From: a virus | Strand: one strand, 5' to 3' | DNA length: 32,186 bases | IMG/VR virus record: IMGVR_UViG_3300025889_000543 | Location: 1 to 32,186 of that record | In this document: positions 304-17,869 of the stretch, piece by piece | Position numbering within the stretch: the stretch's first letter is position 1 | Layout of the letters: each line of letters starts with the position of its first letter | Program-made: the position numbers and the translations under genes | Notes under the pieces: model-generated | What the model was told of the DNA's origin: nothing | The model's database searches: none | The model's input: the letters and a program-made list of their open reading frames with translations, nothing else

Positions 304-1530
304 TTAACTCGCCATTGGCATCAGCGTGGCGACCGGCTTGGCCTTCGGCTTTGCCTGGGAGTTTGCCCGCCTCGCGCCTTCGCAGGCATAGCGAAGCGCA
401 TCGATAACGTGATTGTCCTTATCCTCTAGCAGCGGCAGCACCGATCCGGTGTTCGGATCGACCCTGTAGCTGTAGAGCGTCAGTTCATCGATGGTGTGCT
501 TGCACCGAGGGTGCACGACAATGTCGAAACTCTTGAGCCACTCGACGCCTTCCTCGATGGACTTTGGCCCCTTGATGGCCGGCTGGATCTTGGGAAAGCC
601 GTTCCTTCGCATGTGCGAGATGGTTTCTGGCCGAGCACTGTCCGCCACCATCGGCCAGCGTTCAGCCTCTGGGATCGTCATGAACAGCGACGGCGTGTCC
701 ACAATCTCGCAGCCGATTTGATATGCCTCATAGTCGATGTATAGCTTGCGCCCGATAATATGACTGCGCACCGCCACCGTTGGGTCGCTGGCAAATCCCC
801 AGTCTGCGCCAAGCCGGTGTATCGCGTCTGGAGGCGCGTCGAAATCTTCCACGGTCCAGTTTTTGAACACCCTCGTCTCGCTGTTGCGGACGTACTCGCC
901 GCGCCAGACGTGCATGTACTTGTCCGGGTCGCGGCGCTTGTCGTATTCCATCTCGGCGTGCAGGACATCCGGGAACCATGGATTGTCGGCATAATTCACC
1001 GGCACCACGACGCTGTGATCTGGCGCATTCGGACCACGCAGCAGCGCCTCGATTGGGTCGTCGTCGAAACGCGGGTTCCAGGTAAACCAAAGCTGGCTCT
1101 CCGGCTTGCGGATCGTCGGGCGCAAGATGTCGAGGGAGAACTGGCTTAGGCTCTGCGCTTCCTCGACCCAGGCGATATCGTAGCCTTCGAGTGACTTTAT
1201 GCTGTCGGCGGTATGGTTCTGGAGACCCTGGAATATAATGATCCCGCCATGAACGCTGCGGATTTCGCTCTGCTTGACGTCAAAAAGATGGGCAACGCCC
1301 ATCTCCTCAATTTTATTCTCCAACAGTTTCTTAACCGACTGCGCCAAGGACTTCTGGACCTCGCGCACACAGACCGCATCGACCTTGCCCATGGCCGAGC
1401 GCTCGATCAGCATCTCGGCGAAGAAATGGCTCTTGCCAGATCCTCGCCCGCCATATGCCGCCAGATAGCGCGGGCGCTCTGCCTCCAAGATCGGCAGAGA
1501 CCAGCGTGGGGTTTTGATTTCGAGGTTCAC
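304..1530 (-). CDS. terL: Terminase large subunit (packaging ATPase/nuclease)
   Basis: TerL drives DNA packaging into the procapsid and cuts concatemers. The 408-aa protein has both expected domains. The N-terminal ATPase has Walker A GGRGSGKS (residues 27-34), Walker B YDIAWVEEA (117-125) and a coupling motif WFTWNP (148-153). The RNase H-fold nuclease has candidate acidic metal ligands D243 (GADWGF), D297 (MVADSA) and D377 (NHVIDAL). It resembles the PBSX/phage-type Terminase_3 family. The start overlaps the end of the upstream metallopeptidase-like gene by 4 bp. An insertion of that gene between TerS and TerL is unusual. Confidence 0.95.
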   Translation of the reverse strand: MNLEIKTPRWSLPILEAERPRYLAAYGGRGSGKSHFFAEMLIERSAMGKVDAVCVREVQKSLAQSVKKLLENKIEEMGVAHLFDVKQSEIRSVHGGIIIFQGLQNHTADSIKSLEGYDIAWVEEAQSLSQFSLDILRPTIRKPESQLWFTWNPRFDDDPIEALLRGPNAPDHSVVVPVNYADNPWFPDVLHAEMEYDKRRDPDKYMHVWRGEYVRNSETRVFKNWTVEDFDAPPDAIHRLGADWGFASDPTVAVRSHIIGRKLYIDYEAYQIGCEIVDTPSLFMTIPEAERWPMVADSARPETISHMRRNGFPKIQPAIKGPKSIEEGVEWLKSFDIVVHPRCKHTIDELTLYSYRVDPNTGSVLPLLEDKDNHVIDALRYACEGARRANSQAKPKAKPVATLMPMAS

Positions 1531-3209
1531 CGTTTGGCCGCCGCCTCCCCCGCATCCCCCGCCAAGCGCTTCAGCGCCTTGCTGGCTGCGTCGCCAGCGC
1601 CCGGAATGATGCCCAGCGCCGCCGCAGCACCGGATAGACCAGCCGCGCCAAGGTTGCCCCAGGTCGGGTTATCGTAAGCCCTGCCTGCCGCCAGAGCCGC
1701 ATCCTGCACATCTATGACGTCACCCAACCCAGGGGCCATCTCAGCAGCGCCCAATAGGTTGTATTGCGTAAACGCGGGGACGCCAAAGCCCGTCAGCGTC
1801 TCTACTGCCCACTTGCGGATCGGGTCTTGATAAGCGTCCAGTTCGCGCTGGCGCGATGTCCTCTCCGCCTCTGGATCATATGGCGCCGGCCTCGGGTTCG
1901 CAGCCCTGAACCGAGCCTGGAAACCATCCGATAGGCCGATCTTCGCCAGCACGTCGTCATAGAGTTCCGGGCTTGCAGATATCTCCGCCGCATAGCGATA
2001 GGCCGTGCCTTCGTCCATGCCCAGTTTCTCCATCAGGCCGCCTTGGATAATTTCCGGGTCCATCGCGTTAGCGTCCCCTGGCGCAAATAGTGCGGCCGCC
2101 GCAGAAGTTCCTCGTCCGCCACCGGGCGTCCCTTGTTGAACAGTCTCGTCAGGGACACGTCGTTTTCCAGACTTTACTACTTCGAGGAACTGTTGTGCCT
2201 CCTCTGGGGTCATTTCGCGCATGCCCTCATGCAACTTAATGTCATATTCGCGTAACTTCTCGTGAGTTTCTGCGGTAGGCCATTGGATCCCACTGTTAAC
2301 AGCATTCTTTTTTGCTGTTTCTTCATCCACAATCTCGCCATTCCACAATCCTGGGATTAACGTCGGCTTCCCGTCGATGTCGACTTGCATGGTGTAAACC
2401 GTCGAAACAGTCCCGTCTTCGTTACGGACCCCTTTACCTTCGGCTAAAGTGCGATAATGGTGTTCAAGAATTGGGTCCATTGCGTTAGCGTCCCCGGGCA
2501 CAAATAGTGCAGCCGCCGCCCCCGTTCCCAAAACGGCGGGCGCTAGTGTATTAAACTGGATTATTTTTCCCAGTTTGTCGTCCCGATTGACACGCTCCCT
2601 AATTCGTTTTGCGGTTTTCGGGGCGACGCTTTTCAGCCAGTTCGGGTCGGTCATGTATGCGCGGATGGCCTCGGCCATGTATTCGCGCGGCACGTCTTCG
2701 TCTTTATAGCCGACATGCTGCGGCAATGTTTGCCGTGTGGTCCGCTCCTGACCTGTCACGCCAGCGTTGTAAACAAATCGGAGTTCTGTATCGAGCCCCT
2801 TGACATCGATCTGGCCTGCGAGTTCATCGACAGTGTGGCCAAGTTCATGCGCGTAAACTCTTGGGACTTTTTTTTCCGGCAAATCGCGGTTTAGCGCTAT
2901 TCCAGTCGGATTACGGTATCCAGACGTGGTGAGCCGTCCTGCGTCTCCTTTGATCGCGCTCGACGCAACGATCTCAGCAGGTCTGCCCGTTGTTGCCGTT
3001 GCAAGGGCGTCAAATTCCTTTGGCGAGAGGGCTTCATCCGCTCCGCCTTCCACTCGGCGGCCCACAAGATAGCGCGCTCGGATCTCGTCATCGTCCATCG
3101 TCCTCGTCAGGTTTCCGGCGCTGTCTGTCTGCGCGCCTTTCGGGTAATCTAGCGCAAAATCGCGTGGAGGTCGAGGAAATGGGTCAAAAATTGACCATAT
3201 TTTTGACAC
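1527..3209 (-). CDS. Metallopeptidase-like polyvalent protein lying between TerS and TerL
   Basis: This is a 560-aa protein with a zinc-peptidase signature, HELGHTVDEL (HExxH at 121-125). A possible third ligand lies in EYMAEAIRAY (about 176-186). The C-terminal third is alanine/glycine-rich and could be membrane-active (about 505-545). A 16-residue block, AAAALF-PGDANAMDP, occurs twice (231-246 and 370-385). The segment between the copies contains a DGKPTLIPGLWNGEIVDEE-type block also seen in unrelated phage proteins, as if inserted as a cassette. Start: GTG at 3209 with AAGGAG seven bases upstream. Domain mosaics with peptidase modules are typical of polyvalent phage proteins that are delivered with DNA. 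No substrate can be inferred, and it could also be a head-maturation or ejected protein. Confidence 0.7.
   Translation of the reverse strand: MSKIWSIFDPFPRPPRDFALDYPKGAQTDSAGNLTRTMDDDEIRARYLVGRRVEGGADEALSPKEFDALATATTGRPAEIVASSAIKGDAGRLTTSGYRNPTGIALNRDLPEKKVPRVYAHELGHTVDELAGQIDVKGLDTELRFVYNAGVTGQERTTRQTLPQHVGYKDEDVPREYMAEAIRAYMTDPNWLKSVAPKTAKRIRERVNRDDKLGKIIQFNTLAPAVLGTGAAAALFVPGDANAMDPILEHHYRTLAEGKGVRNEDGTVSTVYTMQVDIDGKPTLIPGLWNGEIVDEETAKKNAVNSGIQWPTAETHEKLREYDIKLHEGMREMTPEEAQQFLEVVKSGKRRVPDETVQQGTPGGGRGTSAAAALFAPGDANAMDPEIIQGGLMEKLGMDEGTAYRYAAEISASPELYDDVLAKIGLSDGFQARFRAANPRPAPYDPEAERTSRQRELDAYQDPIRKWAVETLTGFGVPAFTQYNLLGAAEMAPGLGDVIDVQDAALAAGRAYDNPTWGNLGAAGLSGAAAALGIIPGAGDAASKALKRLAGDAGEAAAKR
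2055..2102. repeat. 48-bp direct repeat, copy 1
   Basis: This copy matches 2472-2519 at 43 of 48 positions and encodes residues 370-385 of the metallopeptidase-like protein. The two copies are 417 bp (139 codons) apart and in frame, so they bracket a cassette. Confidence 0.85.
2472..2519. repeat. 48-bp direct repeat, copy 2
   Basis: This copy encodes residues 231-246 of the metallopeptidase-like protein. The five differences from the 2055-2102 copy change one residue (V to A), so the sequence seems to be kept at protein level. Confidence 0.85.
3183..3207. promoter_or_regulatory. Inverted repeat at the start of the metallopeptidase-like gene
   Basis: Nine-bp arms GTCAAAAAT and ATTTTTGAC are separated by 7 bp. 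On the leftward transcript the hairpin begins inside the GTG start codon (3209-3207) and runs into codons 2-9. It could occlude initiation or be an operator. The region is AT-rich, so chance is possible. Confidence 0.4.
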
Positions 3210-3213
3210 TTCA

Positions 3214-3654
3214 CTACTCCTTCACGCCAGGGTCTATAATGCGTCTGGTGATACTGATCTGCAACGCGCCGCCGTTGTCGCCAGTGATCTCTTGCTTGTC
3301 CCTTTGGCCGAGCATCTGCTTGCCAAGCCAAACCAGCATCGTCGGGTTGCCGTCCTGGGCCGCCTTCCACTGCGCGCGGCGCAGCGAGGCCTTCCCTTCG
3401 CCCTGGTGTTTTTTATACAGGGCTTCAAAGTTATCCACACCTTCGATGCCCTGCTCCTTGATCCGTCGGTTCAAGGTGGTGTCGCTCATGTTCAGGATGT
3501 CGCAGATTTCGTCGCGCGTGCACTGGATGCGGATCATGTTGATCAGCTGCTCCAGTTCCTTTTCGGTCATCGGCTTCATCGGACCCTTCGGCCCTGTCTT
3601 TTTGCGCTGGGCGGCAGGATTTCGGGTCGCTGGTGCTTTGCGGGCGTCCATCAT
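3214..3654 (-). CDS. terS: Terminase small subunit
   Basis: TerS recognises the packaging site and loads TerL. From the chosen start the protein is 146 aa. It has a basic N-terminus, a helix-turn-helix region (CTRDEICDILNMSDTTLNRR) and then the hallmark stretch ASLRRAQWKAAQDGNPTMLV followed by WLGKQMLGQRD, shared by phage DNA-packaging small subunits. An upstream in-frame start at 3672 exists. However, GGGAGG at 3664-3659 and the ATGA overlap with the stop of the upstream ABC-GNAT gene favour 3654 (or the adjacent ATG at 3651). Translational coupling with the ABC-GNAT gene is likely. Confidence 0.88.
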   Translation of the reverse strand: MMDARKAPATRNPAAQRKKTGPKGPMKPMTEKELEQLINMIRIQCTRDEICDILNMSDTTLNRRIKEQGIEGVDNFEALYKKHQGEGKASLRRAQWKAAQDGNPTMLVWLGKQMLGQRDKQEITGDNGGALQISITRRIIDPGVKE

Positions 3655-4748
3655 GCAGCCTCCCGCTTGCATTGAGGAACGTATAGAAACGAAGCAGTCA
3701 GCCGTGAAATTGATGCGTTTTTGTTTGTTTGAGTTTTTGCCTTAGTACCGAGAGGTGAAACCCTGCTTGGTGCGCGATCCATAATCCATGCGACTGATTT
3801 GTGTCGATGCCCAATCATTGCTGGATGCGATGTGACAGACCGAAATTTCTTTCCGCGTTGATGCAGCCATTCCCCAACAAACTCAGACAGACAATTCCCA
3901 AGGCCAAAACCTTGATAATCTGGCAGCGTGACTGTCCTATGCTCTCTCCACACGTTCTTGACCTTTGGATGAGGAAATGGAAGCACCGCCGTAAACGCAG
4001 CCGGTTCTTCATCAAACATCAATACAAAACATGTTGATGCTTTGTTCAAATCGGCGCTCAAATAGTGATTTCCTGCAAACAGTCGCCAAGCAGAGTGATG
4101 ACACCGGAATATCTCAATTTTTGCCGATGGTCGCCTTTCTGACCTCCATTTGAACAATGACGCGGAAACGTCATAAACCCAATCGGCTTGCAACCAACCT
4201 TCCACATCATAGTGACAAGTCACCGCCACAAATTTCTTGTTTGTTCCCTTGATCGCCTTTTGAGCCGCATGGCTGCCTACCTTAGCCACGTTGCGATCCA
4301 CAACCGATGTGAACTCATCAAACACGATTAAATCGCGCTTGTCCGTCAAGCATCGAGCAAGTTCGCACCTGAATTTTTGCCCATTGGAAAGCGCGCTATA
4401 TGGCAACAACCATGCAGGTGGTGAAGAAAACCCAACATGCGACAAGGCGTTGGTAATGTCAGACGCAGACAAGCCATCATCAAAATCGTCCAGCAACGAT
4501 GCTGATGACCAATCATAGCCTTGATGATAGGCGTCATCGCCAAAGACACGACGAGCGACCGTTGTCTTGCCAGACCCAGACGCGCCAACAATCAACCCAA
4601 TTTGCCAATCTTTGTCCTCAATCGGCATGCTGATACGCCATTCTTTACGCAATTTTTTTGTTGCTGGAACGTCAAACATCCCAACAACTTTTTCAGTTCG
4701 AAAAGATGGTTTGTATTCTGTTTCGACTATATGGTCAAAATGCGGCAT
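3651..4748 (-). CDS. ABC-type ATPase fused to a GNAT (Mom-like?) transferase domain
   Basis: This is a 365-aa fusion. The N-terminal half is an ABC-type nucleotide-binding domain without membrane segments: Walker A GASGSGKTT (55-63), signature-like LSNGQ (120-124), Walker B DLIVFDEFTS (139-148, candidate catalytic E145) and H-loop histidine H179. The C-terminal half (about 205-330) looks like a GNAT acyltransferase, with NHYLS (227-231) and the CoA-loop pattern LPDYQGFGLG (275-284, QxxGxG). The NHY motif followed by a strand recalls the Mom protein of phage Mu, a GNAT-fold enzyme that modifies adenine in DNA; this link is inference. Its base composition is visibly more AT-rich than the flanking genes, suggesting later acquisition. 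It overlaps ParB by 22 bp and TerS by 4 bp, so the three are probably co-translated. SD: AAGG six bases before ATG 4748. Confidence 0.75.
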   Translation of the reverse strand: MPHFDHIVETEYKPSFRTEKVVGMFDVPATKKLRKEWRISMPIEDKDWQIGLIVGASGSGKTTVARRVFGDDAYHQGYDWSSASLLDDFDDGLSASDITNALSHVGFSSPPAWLLPYSALSNGQKFRCELARCLTDKRDLIVFDEFTSVVDRNVAKVGSHAAQKAIKGTNKKFVAVTCHYDVEGWLQADWVYDVSASLFKWRSERRPSAKIEIFRCHHSAWRLFAGNHYLSADLNKASTCFVLMFDEEPAAFTAVLPFPHPKVKNVWREHRTVTLPDYQGFGLGNCLSEFVGEWLHQRGKKFRSVTSHPAMIGHRHKSVAWIMDRAPSRVSPLGTKAKTQTNKNASISRLTASFLYVPQCKREAA

Positions 4749-5275
4749 TTGTAGCCCTCCGTTGTCAGAAGGTTAAACACCACCTCCTGTTCGGTTTCGT
4801 CTTTACATTCTACGGCAATTTCAAATGTGGCGTGAAGTTCTTTTTGATCTGGTAGCGTGTCATCGTCTTCGCCGTCATTATCAAACAGCGCGCCGATCTC
4901 GTCCGTCTCAAAGCCGGTGAGGCTGAGGTCGAAGCCCATCTCCTCGAGTTCGCCGAACTCAAGCGCCAGAAGTTCGTTATCCCAGTCCGCCAGTTCGGCA
5001 ACCTTGTTCACCGAGAGGCGGAAGGCTTTGATCTGCGCTTCGCTCATATCATCGGCGAGGACGACTGGCACTTCGGTGAGGCCCAGCTTCTTGGCGGCTT
5101 TCAGGCGGAGGTGTCCATCGACGACGGTGCCGTCGCTCTTGGCGCAGATCGGGACGCGGAAGCCGAACTCTCGGATGGCAGCGGCAACCTTGTCAACGGC
5201 GTGATCGTTTTTTCGCGGATTGCGCGCGTAGTCGATGCAACGCTCGATGGGCCAAGTCTCGAATGTCAGTTTCAT
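4727..5275 (-). CDS. ParB/sulfiredoxin-fold DNA-associated protein
   Basis: This 182-aa protein opens MKLTFETWPIERCIDYARNP. Its ParB-like N-terminal domain carries VPICAKSDGTVVDGHLRLKA, where DGHLRLKAA replaces the GERR-type box of chromosomal ParB. A helical part (ELADWDNELLALEFGELEE) and a small C-terminal domain ending EGYKCRILTI follow. In many phages this architecture is fused to, or followed by, a DNA methylase; here an ABC-GNAT protein follows instead. The ParB/Srx fold binds CTP or ATP in characterised members, but activity here is unknown. The ATG at 5275 is preceded by GAGGGAAAGC and begins the conserved domain. In-frame starts at 5287 and 5428 are less likely, as the extension has no family resemblance and crosses a terminator. 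Confidence 0.85.
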   Translation of the reverse strand: MKLTFETWPIERCIDYARNPRKNDHAVDKVAAAIREFGFRVPICAKSDGTVVDGHLRLKAAKKLGLTEVPVVLADDMSEAQIKAFRLSVNKVAELADWDNELLALEFGELEEMGFDLSLTGFETDEIGALFDNDGEDDDTLPDQKELHATFEIAVECKDETEQEVVFNLLTTEGYKCRILTI

Positions 5276-5283
5276 GCTTTCCC

Positions 5284-5319
5284 TCATCTCGGCACAGAGC
5301 GGGCCGGGCGCGTCAGCAT
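5284..5319 (-). CDS. Possible 11-codon leader ORF before ParB
   Basis: ATG at 5319 opens MLTRPARSVPR and ends at TGA 5284, overlapping an in-frame ATG (5287) of the ParB gene as ATGA. AAGGA lies seven bases before the ATG. It could couple or attenuate ParB translation. It is too short for coding statistics. Confidence 0.25.
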   Translation of the reverse strand: MLTRPARSVPR

Positions 5320-5337
5320 GATGGCTTCCTTCTCCCC

Positions 5338-5371
5338 AAAAAAAAATCGCCGGCCCGATTAAAGGCCGGCG
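5338..5371 (-). terminator. Rho-independent terminator of the leftward early operon
   Basis: A perfect 8-bp stem (CGCCGGCC at 5348-5355 with GGCCGGCG at 5364-5371) and 8-nt loop are followed on the leftward strand by A and nine T (5346-5338). It ends the cro-primase transcript and separates it from the ParB-terminase genes. No convincing sigma70 promoter is visible in the 60 bp between it and ParB. Confidence 0.88.
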
Positions 5372-5402
5372 AAGTCCAGAACCAAACAAAGGGAGGATAC
5401 GC

Positions 5403-5552
5403 CTAATGACCTGGGTGAGGAGGGCCATCAGTCAGATCAAGATATGCCATTTCCCGGATGCGGTCAAGCAGCCAGCCAACCGCCGCATCGGGACCGGTAT
5501 CGGGTATATCACCCCTTACGGGGTGATTTATACCTGCCGATACCGGGTCCAC
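5403..5552 (-). CDS. Possible small ORF or C-terminal remnant after the primase
   Basis: An open frame runs leftward through the repeat region to a TAG at 5403, 31 bases before the terminator hairpin. From a GTG at 5552 it would encode 49 aa, ending PDAAVGWLLDRIREM then AYLDLTDGPPHPGH, which looks protein-like in its last 29 codons. The frame stays open upstream into the primase C-terminus in another phase. It may be the real last gene, the tail of a once longer primase after a frameshift, or chance. The start codon has no good ribosome binding site. Confidence 0.25.
   Translation of the reverse strand: MDPVSAGINHPVRGDIPDTGPDAAVGWLLDRIREMAYLDLTDGPPHPGH
5491..5550. repeat. 60-bp interrupted inverted repeat (long hairpin)
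   Basis: The left arm (5491-5515) pairs with the right arm (5520-5550) around a TTAC loop. The inner stem is perfect (ATCACCCC with GGGGTGAT). The outer parts, containing GGTATCGG and CCGATACC, pair with a few bulged bases. There is no T-tract, so it is not a simple terminator. It lies just beyond the primase stop and inside the GATACC repeat cluster, so it could be a protein-binding site, replication origin element or packaging site. Confidence 0.7.
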
Positions 5553-5674
5553 TCGCCTTTGCCACCCGGTATCAGAAACCCCGATACCGGCTAGGTACCG
5601 GCTGATACCGCCCCATTTTTCTCCATTAATAACAAAGACTTATACGTCTTATCGACCAGATACCACCCGATACC
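5496..5674. repeat. Cluster of seven GATACC/GGTATC elements
   Basis: Exact hexamers occur at 5496-5501, 5539-5544, 5568-5573, 5583-5588, 5604-5609, 5659-5664 and 5669-5674, many extended to CCGATACCGG or its complement. A given hexamer and its complement are expected about once per 2 kb, so seven in 180 bp is striking. The cluster spans the 3' end of the primase gene and the following spacer. Iteron-like arrays near replication genes often mark origins or ParB-type binding sites. Confidence 0.7.
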
Positions 5675-7603
5675 GGTGTCATCTGTCGGCGCTATAATGC
5701 CAGCCTGGAGCAAAAAGCCGATCAGCTTGGTTTGCACAGACGGCTTGGCGCAATTCTTGGCGCTTGCCTGCGACAATCCGCGGCAATCAACATAGAAATT
5801 TATGACGTCGTCACGGCTGATGCACGGGCTAGCCTCGAAAAGATTCGCGCCGCCGGAATGCCACCAGCAGGCTCTAAAATCCTGCTTCATGCGAGCCAGC
5901 TTGCTGTCCTCTTTCAGCGGCGCCTCCGGCCCATCGGACGGCATCAAAACGGCGCTGGCGACCTTCTCTCCGTCCTCGTCAAACCAGCCGGCAATCTCAA
6001 CGCGGTCCAGCGACGCGAAAATTGGATCGGCCAGTTCTGCATCCTTTGATTTGCGCTGCACGACTTCGATGACGTCACCCGGCACGACGCTGATCTCGAT
6101 ATCGAGTGCGCCCCTCCATGCGCTCGACCCGCGCGCCCGGTGTTGAGCCTCGGCTGATACTCCAGTGTGGTGCACCAGGATTACGGTGCAGCCAAACTCC
6201 TGGATCAGCGCGCCGCAGGCGTCGAGCATTGTTTTGGTATCTTGGGCGCTGTTCTCATCGCCATCAAGGAAGCGGTGCAGCGTGTCCACCACGATAGCGG
6301 ATGGCGTGACGGACAATGCCCGGATCGCATCGGCTGTTTTTTGATAGCCGGCGGCGGTGTTGAGATCCAGGCCATGGCGTGACAGCCACATATCCAGGCT
6401 GCGCACGTCGTGGCGCTGTTTCCAGGCGGCAACGCGGCCGCGCAGGCCGTGGTGTCCTTCGCCGGCCAGATAGATCACCGGGCCGTGGCGAACCTTCCGG
6501 CCATGCCACTCGGCGATCGCGCCTTTGCTGGCGATCGACAGCACCATGTCCAGGACCAAAAACGTCTTGCCGCCGCCAGATGGCCCATGGATCATAATGA
6601 GCGCATCGCTCTGCACCCACCGCTTGATCAGCCACTTGATCGGCGCGGGTTGTTTCGAAAAGTCGTCAGCAGGGACCAGCCAATCATCGACCGGCGGGAA
6701 TAGCAGGCCGTGCAAATCCTTGCCGGCCAGATGGTAATCGTTCGCATCTCCCAGATCGGGCGGCATGACGATCCTAGCGCCGTGCTTGGCGGCGGCTTCG
6801 TCGGCCTTGTTGCGGCCAACGCCCGATGCGTCATGGTCGGCCACGACCACGATATCCTGCTGCGAGCCGTGGCGCTCGCGTAGCTGGCGGACTACCTCCG
6901 GCAAATTGTTGGCGCTATAGGCGATGACGACTGGACGGTTGGCGACCTCCCGGATTGTGGCGGCCGTCGCAAATCCCTCGGCGACAAAAATCGTGCCGCC
7001 ATCCAGATCGCCGAGTGTCCAGGAACAGCCGCGCGTTACCGCGCCTGGATGGTAACGCTTTTCATCACCGATATATTGCAGGCTGGAAAGGCTTCCATCC
7101 TCCGCAAACAGCGGGACGATCAGACGGCCATCGCCGGTCGCGCGGGCACCGTGCGATTGAATGCCTTTGCGCTTGAGGTATGGATGATCGGCACTGGCAG
7201 CAATTGCGCCGGCCCAGATGTCGGCAACCGTCTCGGCGGCGACCTCGGCCTTGCGCTTGCGCTCCTCATCGCGACGGGCCTTGGCCTCCGCTTGCCGGGC
7301 AATCAGGCGCATCTCTTCGGCTGGCGAAAGCTTGCGGCCAATGTCGGCACGAAACACCACGTCGATCTGATCCCGCCAGCAGCCAAAGCGACCGGCCACT
7401 GGCTCGTCGGGAAATGCAACGTACCAGCCAGAATTGTCGCGGCTCCGGCCCCTGGTGCTGAAACGATGCAGGTTTCCGTCGATCACGATATTCGACGGCG
7501 GGTTGATCCCAGCCGCAAGCATGGCGTCGGCAAGCTGGATCTCAGGCGGATCGGCGGGGAGGTCGGTCGGAATGCGGATTGGACCGCCAGGAATTTTAGC
7601 CAT
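5591..7603 (-). CDS. Toprim primase / RecA-fold replicative helicase
   Basis: This is a 670-aa bifunctional replication protein. The N-terminal part carries a Toprim domain with E209 in VAEGFATA and DHD at 256-258 (VVVADHDASG), which in this family make RNA primers. The C-terminal half is a RecA/RepA-like ATPase: Walker A GPSGGGKT (340-347), Walker B AIVVDTLHR (D440), LVHHTG (about 476-481) and RGSSAWRG (491-498). No CHC2 zinc-finger is visible. ATG 7603 (MAKIPGG) is chosen over the in-frame ATG at 7621; it overlaps the upstream dNTPase-like gene by 8 bp. The protein is the last large gene of the leftward early operon and is followed by a repeat cluster that might serve as its origin. Confidence 0.9.
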   Translation of the reverse strand: MAKIPGGPIRIPTDLPADPPEIQLADAMLAAGINPPSNIVIDGNLHRFSTRGRSRDNSGWYVAFPDEPVAGRFGCWRDQIDVVFRADIGRKLSPAEEMRLIARQAEAKARRDEERKRKAEVAAETVADIWAGAIAASADHPYLKRKGIQSHGARATGDGRLIVPLFAEDGSLSSLQYIGDEKRYHPGAVTRGCSWTLGDLDGGTIFVAEGFATAATIREVANRPVVIAYSANNLPEVVRQLRERHGSQQDIVVVADHDASGVGRNKADEAAAKHGARIVMPPDLGDANDYHLAGKDLHGLLFPPVDDWLVPADDFSKQPAPIKWLIKRWVQSDALIMIHGPSGGGKTFLVLDMVLSIASKGAIAEWHGRKVRHGPVIYLAGEGHHGLRGRVAAWKQRHDVRSLDMWLSRHGLDLNTAAGYQKTADAIRALSVTPSAIVVDTLHRFLDGDENSAQDTKTMLDACGALIQEFGCTVILVHHTGVSAEAQHRARGSSAWRGALDIEISVVPGDVIEVVQRKSKDAELADPIFASLDRVEIAGWFDEDGEKVASAVLMPSDGPEAPLKEDSKLARMKQDFRACWWHSGGANLFEASPCISRDDVINFYVDCRGLSQASAKNCAKPSVQTKLIGFLLQAGIIAPTDDTGIGWYLVDKTYKSLLLMEKNGAVSAGT

Positions 7604-16232: not shown

Positions 16233-16414
16233 CCGGGATCATCACGACATACTACGGCCTTGAGGCCGACCGAACGGCGGAAATCTATCATTCGCTTGAG
16301 GGGTACTCGGTCGTCTGCCGAGAGGGCAGCGATATCATTAGTTGCGTGACCGCGCCAAGCCGCGGAGATGCGGATGCGGTTGCAGAGGAATGGACACGAT
16401 GCACGAAGAAGTAA
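16229..16414 (+). CDS. Hypothetical protein (61 aa)
   Basis: A GTG at 16229 overlaps the dCMP deaminase stop (GTGA). The 61-aa product contains GIITTYYGLEADRTAEIYHS and a Cys-containing middle, ending DAVAEEWTRCTKK. It has no recognised domain. AGGAG about eleven bases upstream and coupling support it. It overlaps the ThyX gene by 16 bp. A longer frame from 16064 runs within the deaminase and is rejected. Confidence 0.6.
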   Translation: MTGIITTYYGLEADRTAEIYHSLEGYSVVCREGSDIISCVTAPSRGDADAVAEEWTRCTKK

Positions 16415-17061
16415 AACTAACCGGCTACAGCCGCAGGATCGGCGCACAGCCTGATGAGACGCTTGGCGACCAGATCGCCTACTATGCCCGCGTGAGTAAT
16501 CCGACATCGGCGGATATGGGCAAAGGCAACGACAAGTTGATTAGCTATCTGATCCGGCACAAGCACTGGAGCCCGTTTGAGATGGTGTCAGCGACCGTGA
16601 AGATCACAAGCACGCGTGACATCATCCGTCAGATATTGCGGCATCGCTCGTTCTCGTTCCAGGAGTTTTCTCAGCGGTACAGCGCAACCGAGACCACCGG
16701 AGCCGTGCGAGAAACGCGGCTACAGGACCACACCAACCGTCAAAACAGCCTGGAAACTGACGACAAAGCGCTCGACGACTGGTGGGTCGAGAAGCAGCGC
16801 GCGGTCATGGGCAGCACTTTCGAGCTTTATGACCAAGCGTTGAAGCGCGGCATCGCCAAAGAACAGGCGCGCGCGATCTTGCCGGAAGGTCTGACGCGCA
16901 GCACGATATTTATGTCCGGCTCAATCCGGTCATGGCTTCACTATTGCGAACTGCGCACTGGGCCGGAGACGCAGAAGGAGCACCGCGAGATCGCTGCTGC
17001 GTGCGCAGTCCAGATCGCCCGCGTATTTCCCCAGATCGTCGGAGTGTTGCAGCATGACTGA
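16399..17061 (+). CDS. thyX: Flavin-dependent thymidylate synthase
   Basis: ThyX makes dTMP from dUMP using FAD and methylene-tetrahydrofolate. The 220-aa protein shows the diagnostic RHRSFSFQEFSQRYS (RHRx7S) motif and SPFEMVSATVKI before it, with ARAILPEGLTRSTIFMSGS later. ATG 16399 has GAGGA about nine bases upstream; an in-frame ATG at 16390 is less well spaced. Together with the dCMP deaminase it would increase thymidine nucleotide supply for phage DNA. It overlaps the next gene by 8 bp. Confidence 0.96.
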   Translation: MHEEVKLTGYSRRIGAQPDETLGDQIAYYARVSNPTSADMGKGNDKLISYLIRHKHWSPFEMVSATVKITSTRDIIRQILRHRSFSFQEFSQRYSATETTGAVRETRLQDHTNRQNSLETDDKALDDWWVEKQRAVMGSTFELYDQALKRGIAKEQARAILPEGLTRSTIFMSGSIRSWLHYCELRTGPETQKEHREIAAACAVQIARVFPQIVGVLQHD

Positions 17062-17869
17062 CGCGCTATACAACGAGGTTGACCCCTATCCAGCGGCCTG
17101 GCTGCGCAACCTGATCGCTGCCGATCACATCCCGCCGGGGCATGTCGATGAGCGCAACATCGCCGATCTAACCGCGAACGATGTGAGTGATCGCGCCCAA
17201 GTCCATTTCTTTGCCGGCATCGGAGGATGGAACCATGCCTTGGAATTGGCCGGATGGCCAGCAGCTAGACCTGTTTGGACAGGATCATGCCCCTGCCAGC
17301 CCTTCTCAGTCGCCGGGAAAGGACTCGGAACCGACGACGCCCGCCATCTCTGGCCCGAAATGCGCCGCCTCATCGGCGAGTGTCGTCCTCCAATCGTCTT
17401 TGGAGAGCAAGTTGCAGGCCGCGCTGGACGTGAATGGCTCGCCGGAGTACGCGCTGACTTGGAAGAACTGGGTTATGCAGTCGGGGCCAGCGATCTGTGC
17501 GCTCCGGGCGCGGGCGCACCGCATATCCGTCAGCGTCTCTATTGGGGTGCAATCAGGCTGGCCGACGCCAACCAGCGGGAACGCGGATGGGCCGCAAATG
17601 GCCAAGGGCGCCAGCACGACGGGCAGACGACCGGACGGCAGCAAGGCGACGGTTTCGCTCAATCAAGTGGCGCAAGCGGCTGGGCCGATTCAGTCTGGCA
17701 CGAATGCCTTGACGGAAAAGCCCGCCGGATACCGTCTGAACCCGAACTTTTCCCGCTGGCTGATGGGGTTCCCGGCAGAGTGGGCCAACTGCGCGCCTAC
17801 GGCAACGCCATCGTCCCGCAAGTCGCGGCGACGTTCATAACAGCTTTCATGGGGGCATGTAATGAATAA
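17054..17869 (+). CDS. DNA cytosine-C5 methyltransferase
   Basis: This is a 271-aa C5-methyltransferase. Motif I is HFFAGIGGW (51-59) for SAM, motif IV is GSCPCQPFS with catalytic C81, VFGEQV (115-120) stands in for the ENV box, and APHIRQRLYW and YGNAIVPQVA occur later. The N-terminus (YNEVDPYPAAWLRNLIAADH) is typical of phage Dcm-type enzymes. It methylates cytosine in an unknown target, perhaps protecting phage DNA. Another apparently real ORF lies inside it in a different frame (17235-17840). It overlaps ThyX and the following XRE gene. Confidence 0.92.
   Translation: MTDALYNEVDPYPAAWLRNLIAADHIPPGHVDERNIADLTANDVSDRAQVHFFAGIGGWNHALELAGWPAARPVWTGSCPCQPFSVAGKGLGTDDARHLWPEMRRLIGECRPPIVFGEQVAGRAGREWLAGVRADLEELGYAVGASDLCAPGAGAPHIRQRLYWGAIRLADANQRERGWAANGQGRQHDGQTTGRQQGDGFAQSSGASGWADSVWHECLDGKARRIPSEPELFPLADGVPGRVGQLRAYGNAIVPQVAATFITAFMGACNE
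17235..17840 (+). CDS. Second ORF fully inside the methyltransferase gene (overprinted)
   Basis: In the +1 frame relative to the methyltransferase, ATG 17235 encodes 201 aa starting MPWNWPDGQQLDLFGQDHAP. The SD GGAGG (17222-17226) is eight bases upstream and is part of the codons for the GIGGW SAM motif. The protein contains a block SPEYALTWKNWVMQSGPAIC ALRARAHRIS and GWPTPTSGNADG, which I recognise as a recurring phage/prophage hypothetical family of the DLFG...LTWK...SGWPTPT type. Both frames look family-like, so this is probably genuine dual coding. Function is unknown; it is Ser/Pro-rich and lacks catalytic motifs. Confidence 0.7.
   Translation: MPWNWPDGQQLDLFGQDHAPASPSQSPGKDSEPTTPAISGPKCAASSASVVLQSSLESKLQAALDVNGSPEYALTWKNWVMQSGPAICALRARAHRISVSVSIGVQSGWPTPTSGNADGPQMAKGASTTGRRPDGSKATVSLNQVAQAAGPIQSGTNALTEKPAGYRLNPNFSRWLMGFPAEWANCAPTATPSSRKSRRRS

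Follow-up and report, generated by a model that had tools for sequence, protein, structure and literature searches.

A phage gene pair encoding a ParB protein with a C-terminal tail and an ABC ATPase-GNAT fusion: a candidate DNA-base modification module

What is the role of a protein that joins an ABC ATPase to a GNAT domain and is encoded between a ParB gene and the terminase genes of a phage? The question is raised by the window analysed here, the whole stretch of a 32,186-base virus record, whose minus strand carries in order a ParB gene (4727-5275), the ABC-GNAT gene (3651-4748), the gene of a probable terminase small subunit (TerS, 3214-3672), a gene for a 560-residue protein (1527-3209) and that of the terminase large subunit (TerL, 304-1530; Terminase_3, 119 bits). 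GNAT domains coupled with an ABC ATPase were identified earlier and predicted to make an uncharacterised acyl modification of a nucleobase, according to excerpts of a 2021 jumbo-phage review (PMC7824862, citing Iyer et al. NAR 2013) which name QAX98348.1 of Aeromonas phage AsFcp_2 as an example. The core idea that ABC-GNAT proteins acylate DNA is thus known as a prediction, and the initial annotation of the window overstated the novelty of the system. QAX98348.1, encoded at positions 3896-5074 of locus L006, is a direct homologue of the window protein (35% identity in the alignment), with the same coupling of ABC and GNAT in the same order and, in those excerpts, the same predicted function. 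Unlike the window, its locus has no ParB gene or ParB tail adjoining. The excerpts name only a few jumbo phages, whereas the family described below extends to hundreds of phages and prophages, in the company of ParB, tail or formyltransferase.

The gene pair and the ABC-GNAT protein in the window

The 182-residue ParB protein is translated from an ATG at 5275, which is preceded by GAGGGAAAGC. The end of its gene overlaps the start of the ABC-GNAT gene, also an ATG, by 22 nt (4727-4748, ATGCCGCATTTTGACCATATAG), with a GGAGG motif upstream, and the computed overlap between ABC-GNAT and TerS is again of 22 nt (3651-3672). These overlaps had been described initially and stand as such; the identity of the downstream gene is less firm, the TerS assignment being based on weak profile scores of about 1e-5 (phrog_309, 1.1e-5), and the 560-residue gene lies before TerL. 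We treated TerS and TerL as context, outside the module. This minus-strand gene (1527-3209), which separates TerS from TerL, is unrelated; its product contains an HELGH (HExxH) motif and gave 0 matches in PHROGs and no significant match in Pfam. The ABC-GNAT gene is, as previously remarked, richer in AT than its surroundings: its GC content is 47.1%, against a mean of 57.0% for the window, and it forms the lowest-GC 1.1-kb stretch of the window, which suggests a recent acquisition. Elsewhere on the plus strand, a thymidylate synthase gene (16342-17061) is overlapped by a second DNA-methyltransferase gene (17054-17869; phrog_363, 5e-77), so this phage may have more than one way of modifying its own DNA.

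The 365-residue protein belongs to phrog_11143, which has no assigned function. That it is a true fusion, as first proposed, was confirmed by the two Pfam domains, both above their cut-offs (ABC_tran, PF00005, 37 bits for a cut-off of 25; Acetyltransf_1, PF00583, 23.9 bits for 20.7), and by the conservation of motifs in 68 diverse homologues. In the ABC nucleotide-binding domain (residues 1-204, 4137-4748; VIA-align Z scores against ABC ATPases reaching 15.1), the Walker A GASGSGKT (residues 55-62, 4563-4586) is invariant at G55, S57, G58, G60 and K61, the LSGGQ-like signature LSNGQ (residues 120-124, 4377-4391) at L120, S121 and G123, and the Walker B pair Asp144-Glu145 (4314-4319) and the H-loop His179 (4212-4214) throughout. 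The motifs checked were Walker A, Walker B, signature, D-loop and H-loop, the Q-loop being unassigned; all are invariant, as expected of an ABC ATPase, and S148xxD151 is among the invariant or near-invariant positions. In the GNAT domain (residues 205-365, 3651-4136), these positions are W221, F224, H228-Y229-L230, R271, P276 and Q279-G280-x-G282. They comprise an HY motif also present in Mom (His228-Tyr229, 4062-4067; H in 97% and Y in 100% of the homologues) and a canonical acyl-CoA pyrophosphate loop of the Q/RxxGxG/A type, QGFGLG (residues 279-284, 3897-3914; Q 92%, G280 and G282 100%, G284 89%). Judging from conservation, the aromatic and basic residues W221, F224, H228, Y229, R271 and W321 could line a predicted pocket for a base.

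AlphaFold2 modelled the full-length protein with a pLDDT of 92.9. As the full-length fold search was dominated by ABC transporters, the GNAT domain was modelled (pLDDT 91.9) and searched alone. It resembled ordinary GNATs, with 1y9k (Z 14.4, rmsd 3.3 over 138 residues) and RimI 5isv (Z 14.2) in front; among the 50 matches listed, generic GNATs scored Z 12.5-14.4 and the Mom structure 8bv8 did not appear. These nearest folds are protein and small-molecule acetyltransferases. A transporter role was rejected, since the protein has no fused membrane domain and none occurs among the common neighbour genes. PADLOC returned one weak mad3 match, on the ABC motifs.

Spread of the family and the tail of its ParB partner

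By tblastn, 75 phage records from Gram-positive, Gram-negative, spirochaete and Bacteroidota hosts matched the ABC-GNAT protein. It is not a chance open reading frame, because 48 of them carry at least 80% of its length. A scan of viral contigs yielded at least 600 matching stretches. In bacterial genomes 431 stretches proved to be relatives, with best matches largely in Planctomycetota and Nonomuraea. The 349 loci among the matches listed were reduced at 80% identity to 262 non-redundant loci, 198 viral and 64 from genomes. Many of the latter have TerL nearby and therefore look like prophages. A terminase gene lies within 3.5 kb of ABC-GNAT in 158 of the 262 loci; members from Mu-like and jumbo phages are placed apart from it. 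ABC and GNAT are separate adjacent genes in Streptococcus, Lactococcus, Oenococcus and Tenacibaculum phages, and in Thomasclavelia phage TR-TP2 (L016) two overlapping reading frames (4815-5546 and 5450-6211) both match the family, possibly as a split gene or a programmed frameshift. Existing annotations of Streptococcus and Oenococcus phages label the ABC part 'iron siderophore transporter' and the ParB 'DNA modification methylase'. Near ABC-GNAT, at a distance of up to 6 kb, 40 of the 262 loci have an ASCH-domain or similar gene, in most cases on the other strand (for instance L224:6484-6870 and L003:5085-5378, both minus); the ASCH domain is related to domains that read modified bases.

The pairing with ParB seen in the window proved to be general in a survey of these neighbourhoods, a check that the initial annotation had suggested: a ParB-family ORF lies directly upstream of ABC-GNAT in 224 of the 262 non-redundant loci. 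The two genes overlap by exactly 22 nt in 108 of the 224, by 4 nt in 43 and by 19 nt in 11. The window ParB belongs to the ParB/Srx superfamily through phrog_620 (2.6e-45); its ParB_N score in Pfam is 21.7 bits, under the cut-off of 26.3, and the P335 homologue reaches 38. All 224 upstream ORFs end in a C-terminal tail of about 48 residues (4727-4873 in the window, minus strand), scored with local HMMs, whose consensus core is FGVIVECEDEAEQEELYERLTEEGYKCRVLTL. The tail is specific to ABC-GNAT loci: among viral-contig ParB loci it was present in 6/6 with ABC-GNAT and in 0/74 without, and the six ParBs with other partners that were tested (T280, Javan576, ZRG1, Y8A, X29 and Appa) all lack it. 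About 20 loci lack the ParB domain and keep the tail alone, as a micro-ORF of 42-49 residues, for instance 49 in Komp_PAO1_1 and 42 in Porphyromonas phage008a. A search of phages with the 37-residue tail consensus gave 0 matches at E 0.01. On its simplest reading, drawn from this distribution, the tail would be a docking domain.

Two parts of the family depart from this layout. A separate clade has neither ParB nor tail (L006, L011, L014, L251, L259, L264, L280, L281, L289 and L292); its members are mostly large phages, including those of Aeromonas and Vibrio, and no common partner gene was found among their neighbours. In 32 of the 262 loci, all viral, a formyltransferase-like gene lies directly downstream of ABC-GNAT, often overlapping it by a few nt. 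Loci with a micro-ORF and those with a formyltransferase group in one clade of the tree (38 rows, SH-aLRT 100), in which ParB and micro-ORF forms are mixed; the window protein, whose locus has no formyltransferase, falls in the other part. The closest solved relatives of the phage formyltransferase-like protein are the hydrolase domains of 10-formyltetrahydrofolate dehydrogenase (2bw0, E 8e-24), an enzyme that passes its formyl group on via a 4'-phosphopantetheine arm. As in those domains, the Asn of the NxHPS motif is lost while His and Asp are kept. In Gordonia phage Ligma (L013:1805-2452) and relatives this gene is labelled 'tRNA-methyltransferase' or hypothetical.

Genes that exchange at the place behind this ParB

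The enzymes that accompany the same ParB family elsewhere bear directly on the function. Just ahead of the terminase genes, Javan576, T280 and ZRG1 encode a ParB that is joined in one protein to a methyltransferase or to a domain annotated as methylase. Such ParB-DNA methyltransferase fusions (phrog_498) thus share ParB family and place with the ABC-GNAT module and differ in that the methyltransferase is fused in frame to a ParB without tail. Among 80 ParB-family loci, mostly in front of TerL and ranked by similarity to Mom-coupled ParB, so that the counts show possible partners and not frequencies, the partner was a methyltransferase (fused or adjacent) in 34, Mom in 13, ABC-GNAT in 6 and another gene in 27; the classified partners occurred as one kind per locus. 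Ten proteins taken from the 27 remaining loci comprised 2 TET/JBP oxygenases, 2 TET-associated glycosyltransferases, 1 C5 methylase, 3 N6/N4 methylases, 1 FkbM methyltransferase and 1 cupin. The oxygenase, glycosyltransferase and C5 methylase genes, found after ParB and mostly before TerL, include L423:1706-2542, L461:4576-5322, L407:3469-4335, L427:4597-5328 and L418:2789-3844. This ParB family seems to partner phage DNA modifiers in general.

Exchange with Mom could be followed in individual phages. Psychrobacter phage vB_PmaS_Y8A (L385) encodes ParB, a Mom homologue from a gene that had no name (L385:4096-4749), TerS and TerL. Its ParB shares 50% identity with the ParB of Pasteurella Pmp13, whose partner is ABC-GNAT; the published annotation of Y8A gives the name Mom to another gene, ORF69, leaving two Mom candidates in this phage. 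In Microbacterium phage Appa, ParB overlaps a Mom homologue. The Porphyromonas phages phage008a (L012) and phage014a (L388) are 82-86% identical up to L012:4648 and L388:5826, and again 83% identical from L012:6659 and L388:6708 to the end. Between these shared flanks phage008a carries the micro-ORF, ABC-GNAT and formyltransferase genes. In phage014a the same interval holds one gene, for Mom, which makes ABC-GNAT and Mom alternative alleles at this locus of the two phages. Komp_PAO1_1 is a transposable phage of the Mu type that encodes Gam and a transposition protein; its module stands just after the tail fibre genes, a place comparable to that of mom in Mu. The natural reading is that one DNA modifier has been replaced by another at these loci.

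Because the slot behind ParB exchanges between methyltransferase, Mom, TET/JBP, glycosyltransferase and ABC-GNAT genes, the position of the locus strongly supports a role of ABC-GNAT in DNA modification, and with it the original suggestion of an ATPase-GNAT modifier paired with ParB where a methylase often stands. Taking together this exchange, the allele swap, the Y8A parallel, the position in Komp_PAO1_1, the coupling to ParB, the tail that tracks ABC-GNAT and the conserved catalytic motifs, we consider that the gene pair is probably a phage DNA-base modification module (probability of roughly 0.7). The packaging-marking role proposed alongside is not supported, given the Mu-like and jumbo-phage members away from terminase and a terminase neighbourhood that is common to all ParB-modifier modules. 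Counterpoints to the DNA-modification reading are that GNATs modify many things, that the GNAT domain here comes closest in fold to acetyltransferases acting on proteins and small molecules, and that one clade has neither ParB nor tail.

Alternative functions, proposed mechanism and significance

The initial annotation had called the GNAT half Mom-like. Mom of phage Mu (PF25680; PDB 8bv8) is likewise a GNAT-fold DNA modifier with an HY motif, and the two families are alleles at one locus, so one may ask whether the module is a true Mom with an added ATPase that makes N6-carbamoylmethyl-adenine. LP65 Orf128, a Mom homologue, ranked 12th in the viral fold library, a rank that is not distinguishing, and the HY motifs lie in register in the hhalign output. 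Against such a membership, the 365-residue protein had no match to the Mom profiles PF25680 and phrog_1384 at E up to 1 (Mu Mom scores 253 bits in the control), BLASTP of ABC-GNAT against Mom gave 0 matches, and comparison of profiles against two Mom sets, one narrow and one wider, gave nothing significant (hhalign probability 0.9%). Among the Mom signatures HYS (invariant in the Mom set), ELxRM and SFAD, ABC-GNAT has only HY and one Arg in common, ELxRM and SFAD being absent. The ATPase, the canonical CoA loop and the ParB tail are all lacking in Mu Mom. The HY motif is truly shared, yet a match of two residues is little proof, and from these comparisons true membership of the Mom family appears highly improbable. 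The relation to Mom is one of position, family membership or descent is not supported, and the name 'Mom-like', taken as kinship, was dropped; ABC-GNAT probably works to the same end as Mom.

Other targets of the GNAT domain were considered. Its substrate might be a protein: terminase, the RNA polymerase of the host or one of the host's defence proteins. The ABC domain would then act as a regulatory clamp, and ParB would be present by operon history. RimI and Naa50-type protein acetyltransferases are among the closest solved folds, terminase is often near, and there is a phage precedent in Rac of phiKMV, a GNAT that acetylates the RNA polymerase of the host (cited in the excerpts of PMC7824862). 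Exchange with Mom, methyltransferase, TET and glycosyltransferase genes, members far from terminase and the tight coupling to ParB all speak against a protein target, which we regard as unlikely. Acylation of dNTPs, polyamines, a host toxin or another small molecule, leaving polymerised DNA untouched, would fit the diamine and spermidine acetyltransferases among the weak matches of the GNAT profile and the formyltransferase that accompanies one clade. The other enzymes found with this ParB family, for the most part DNA methyltransferases, Mom and TET proteins, act on DNA, and small molecules would not need an ABC ATPase, so that a modifier of this kind is very unlikely.

Among possible DNA modifications, we favour an N-acylation of adenine or cytosine that depends on acyl-CoA, because the CoA loop is intact and a comparable scheme exists in the RNA cytidine acetyltransferases TmcA/NAT10. 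In these enzymes a P-loop ATPase is followed by a GNAT domain, and ATP and acetyl-CoA are used on a nucleobase amine. Their ATPase is helicase-like and their target RNA, whereas the ATPase of the window protein is of ABC type; their match to the GNAT profile is weak (E 0.03), and the likeness is one of analogy, not of membership. In the proposed mechanism, ParB would present or select DNA and its tail would dock ABC-GNAT; ATP-driven dimerisation of the ABC domains would then grip and distort the DNA, and the GNAT domain would acylate an exocyclic base amine (adenine N6 or cytosine N4) with acyl-CoA as donor, much as in RNA cytidine acetylation by the TmcA/NAT10 fusion. The mark would protect phage DNA from restriction, perhaps hiding it from bacterial defences. 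In one clade the formyltransferase-like enzyme would add to the acyl group or change it; as a guess, it might load formyl onto CoA for the GNAT domain, or alternatively formylate an amine already on the base. It is possible, and we put it forward tentatively, that the module makes a base adduct new to DNA (N-acyl, perhaps formylated in the formyltransferase clade) by means of an acyltransferase that is driven by ATP and brought in by an exchangeable ParB adaptor, the tail of which specifies the enzyme.

The literature searched, which did not extend to Iyer et al. 2013, yielded no mention of the ParB tail, the slot swaps, the allele swap or the formyltransferase clade, and no experiment showing base modification by ABC-GNAT; the tail, the slot swaps and the formyltransferase-linked clade are apparently undescribed. 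The results suggest a rule for reading phage genomes, in which a gene after this ParB and before terminase is likely a DNA modifier and the ParB tail marks the ABC-GNAT kind. If the adaptor reading is true, the module would be a plug-and-play system for phage DNA modification. The family would represent a widespread and seemingly uncharacterised DNA-modification chemistry in phages of many hosts, testable in cultivated carriers such as P335, LE4, Pmp13, SL25, Komp_PAO1_1 and the Gordonia phages.
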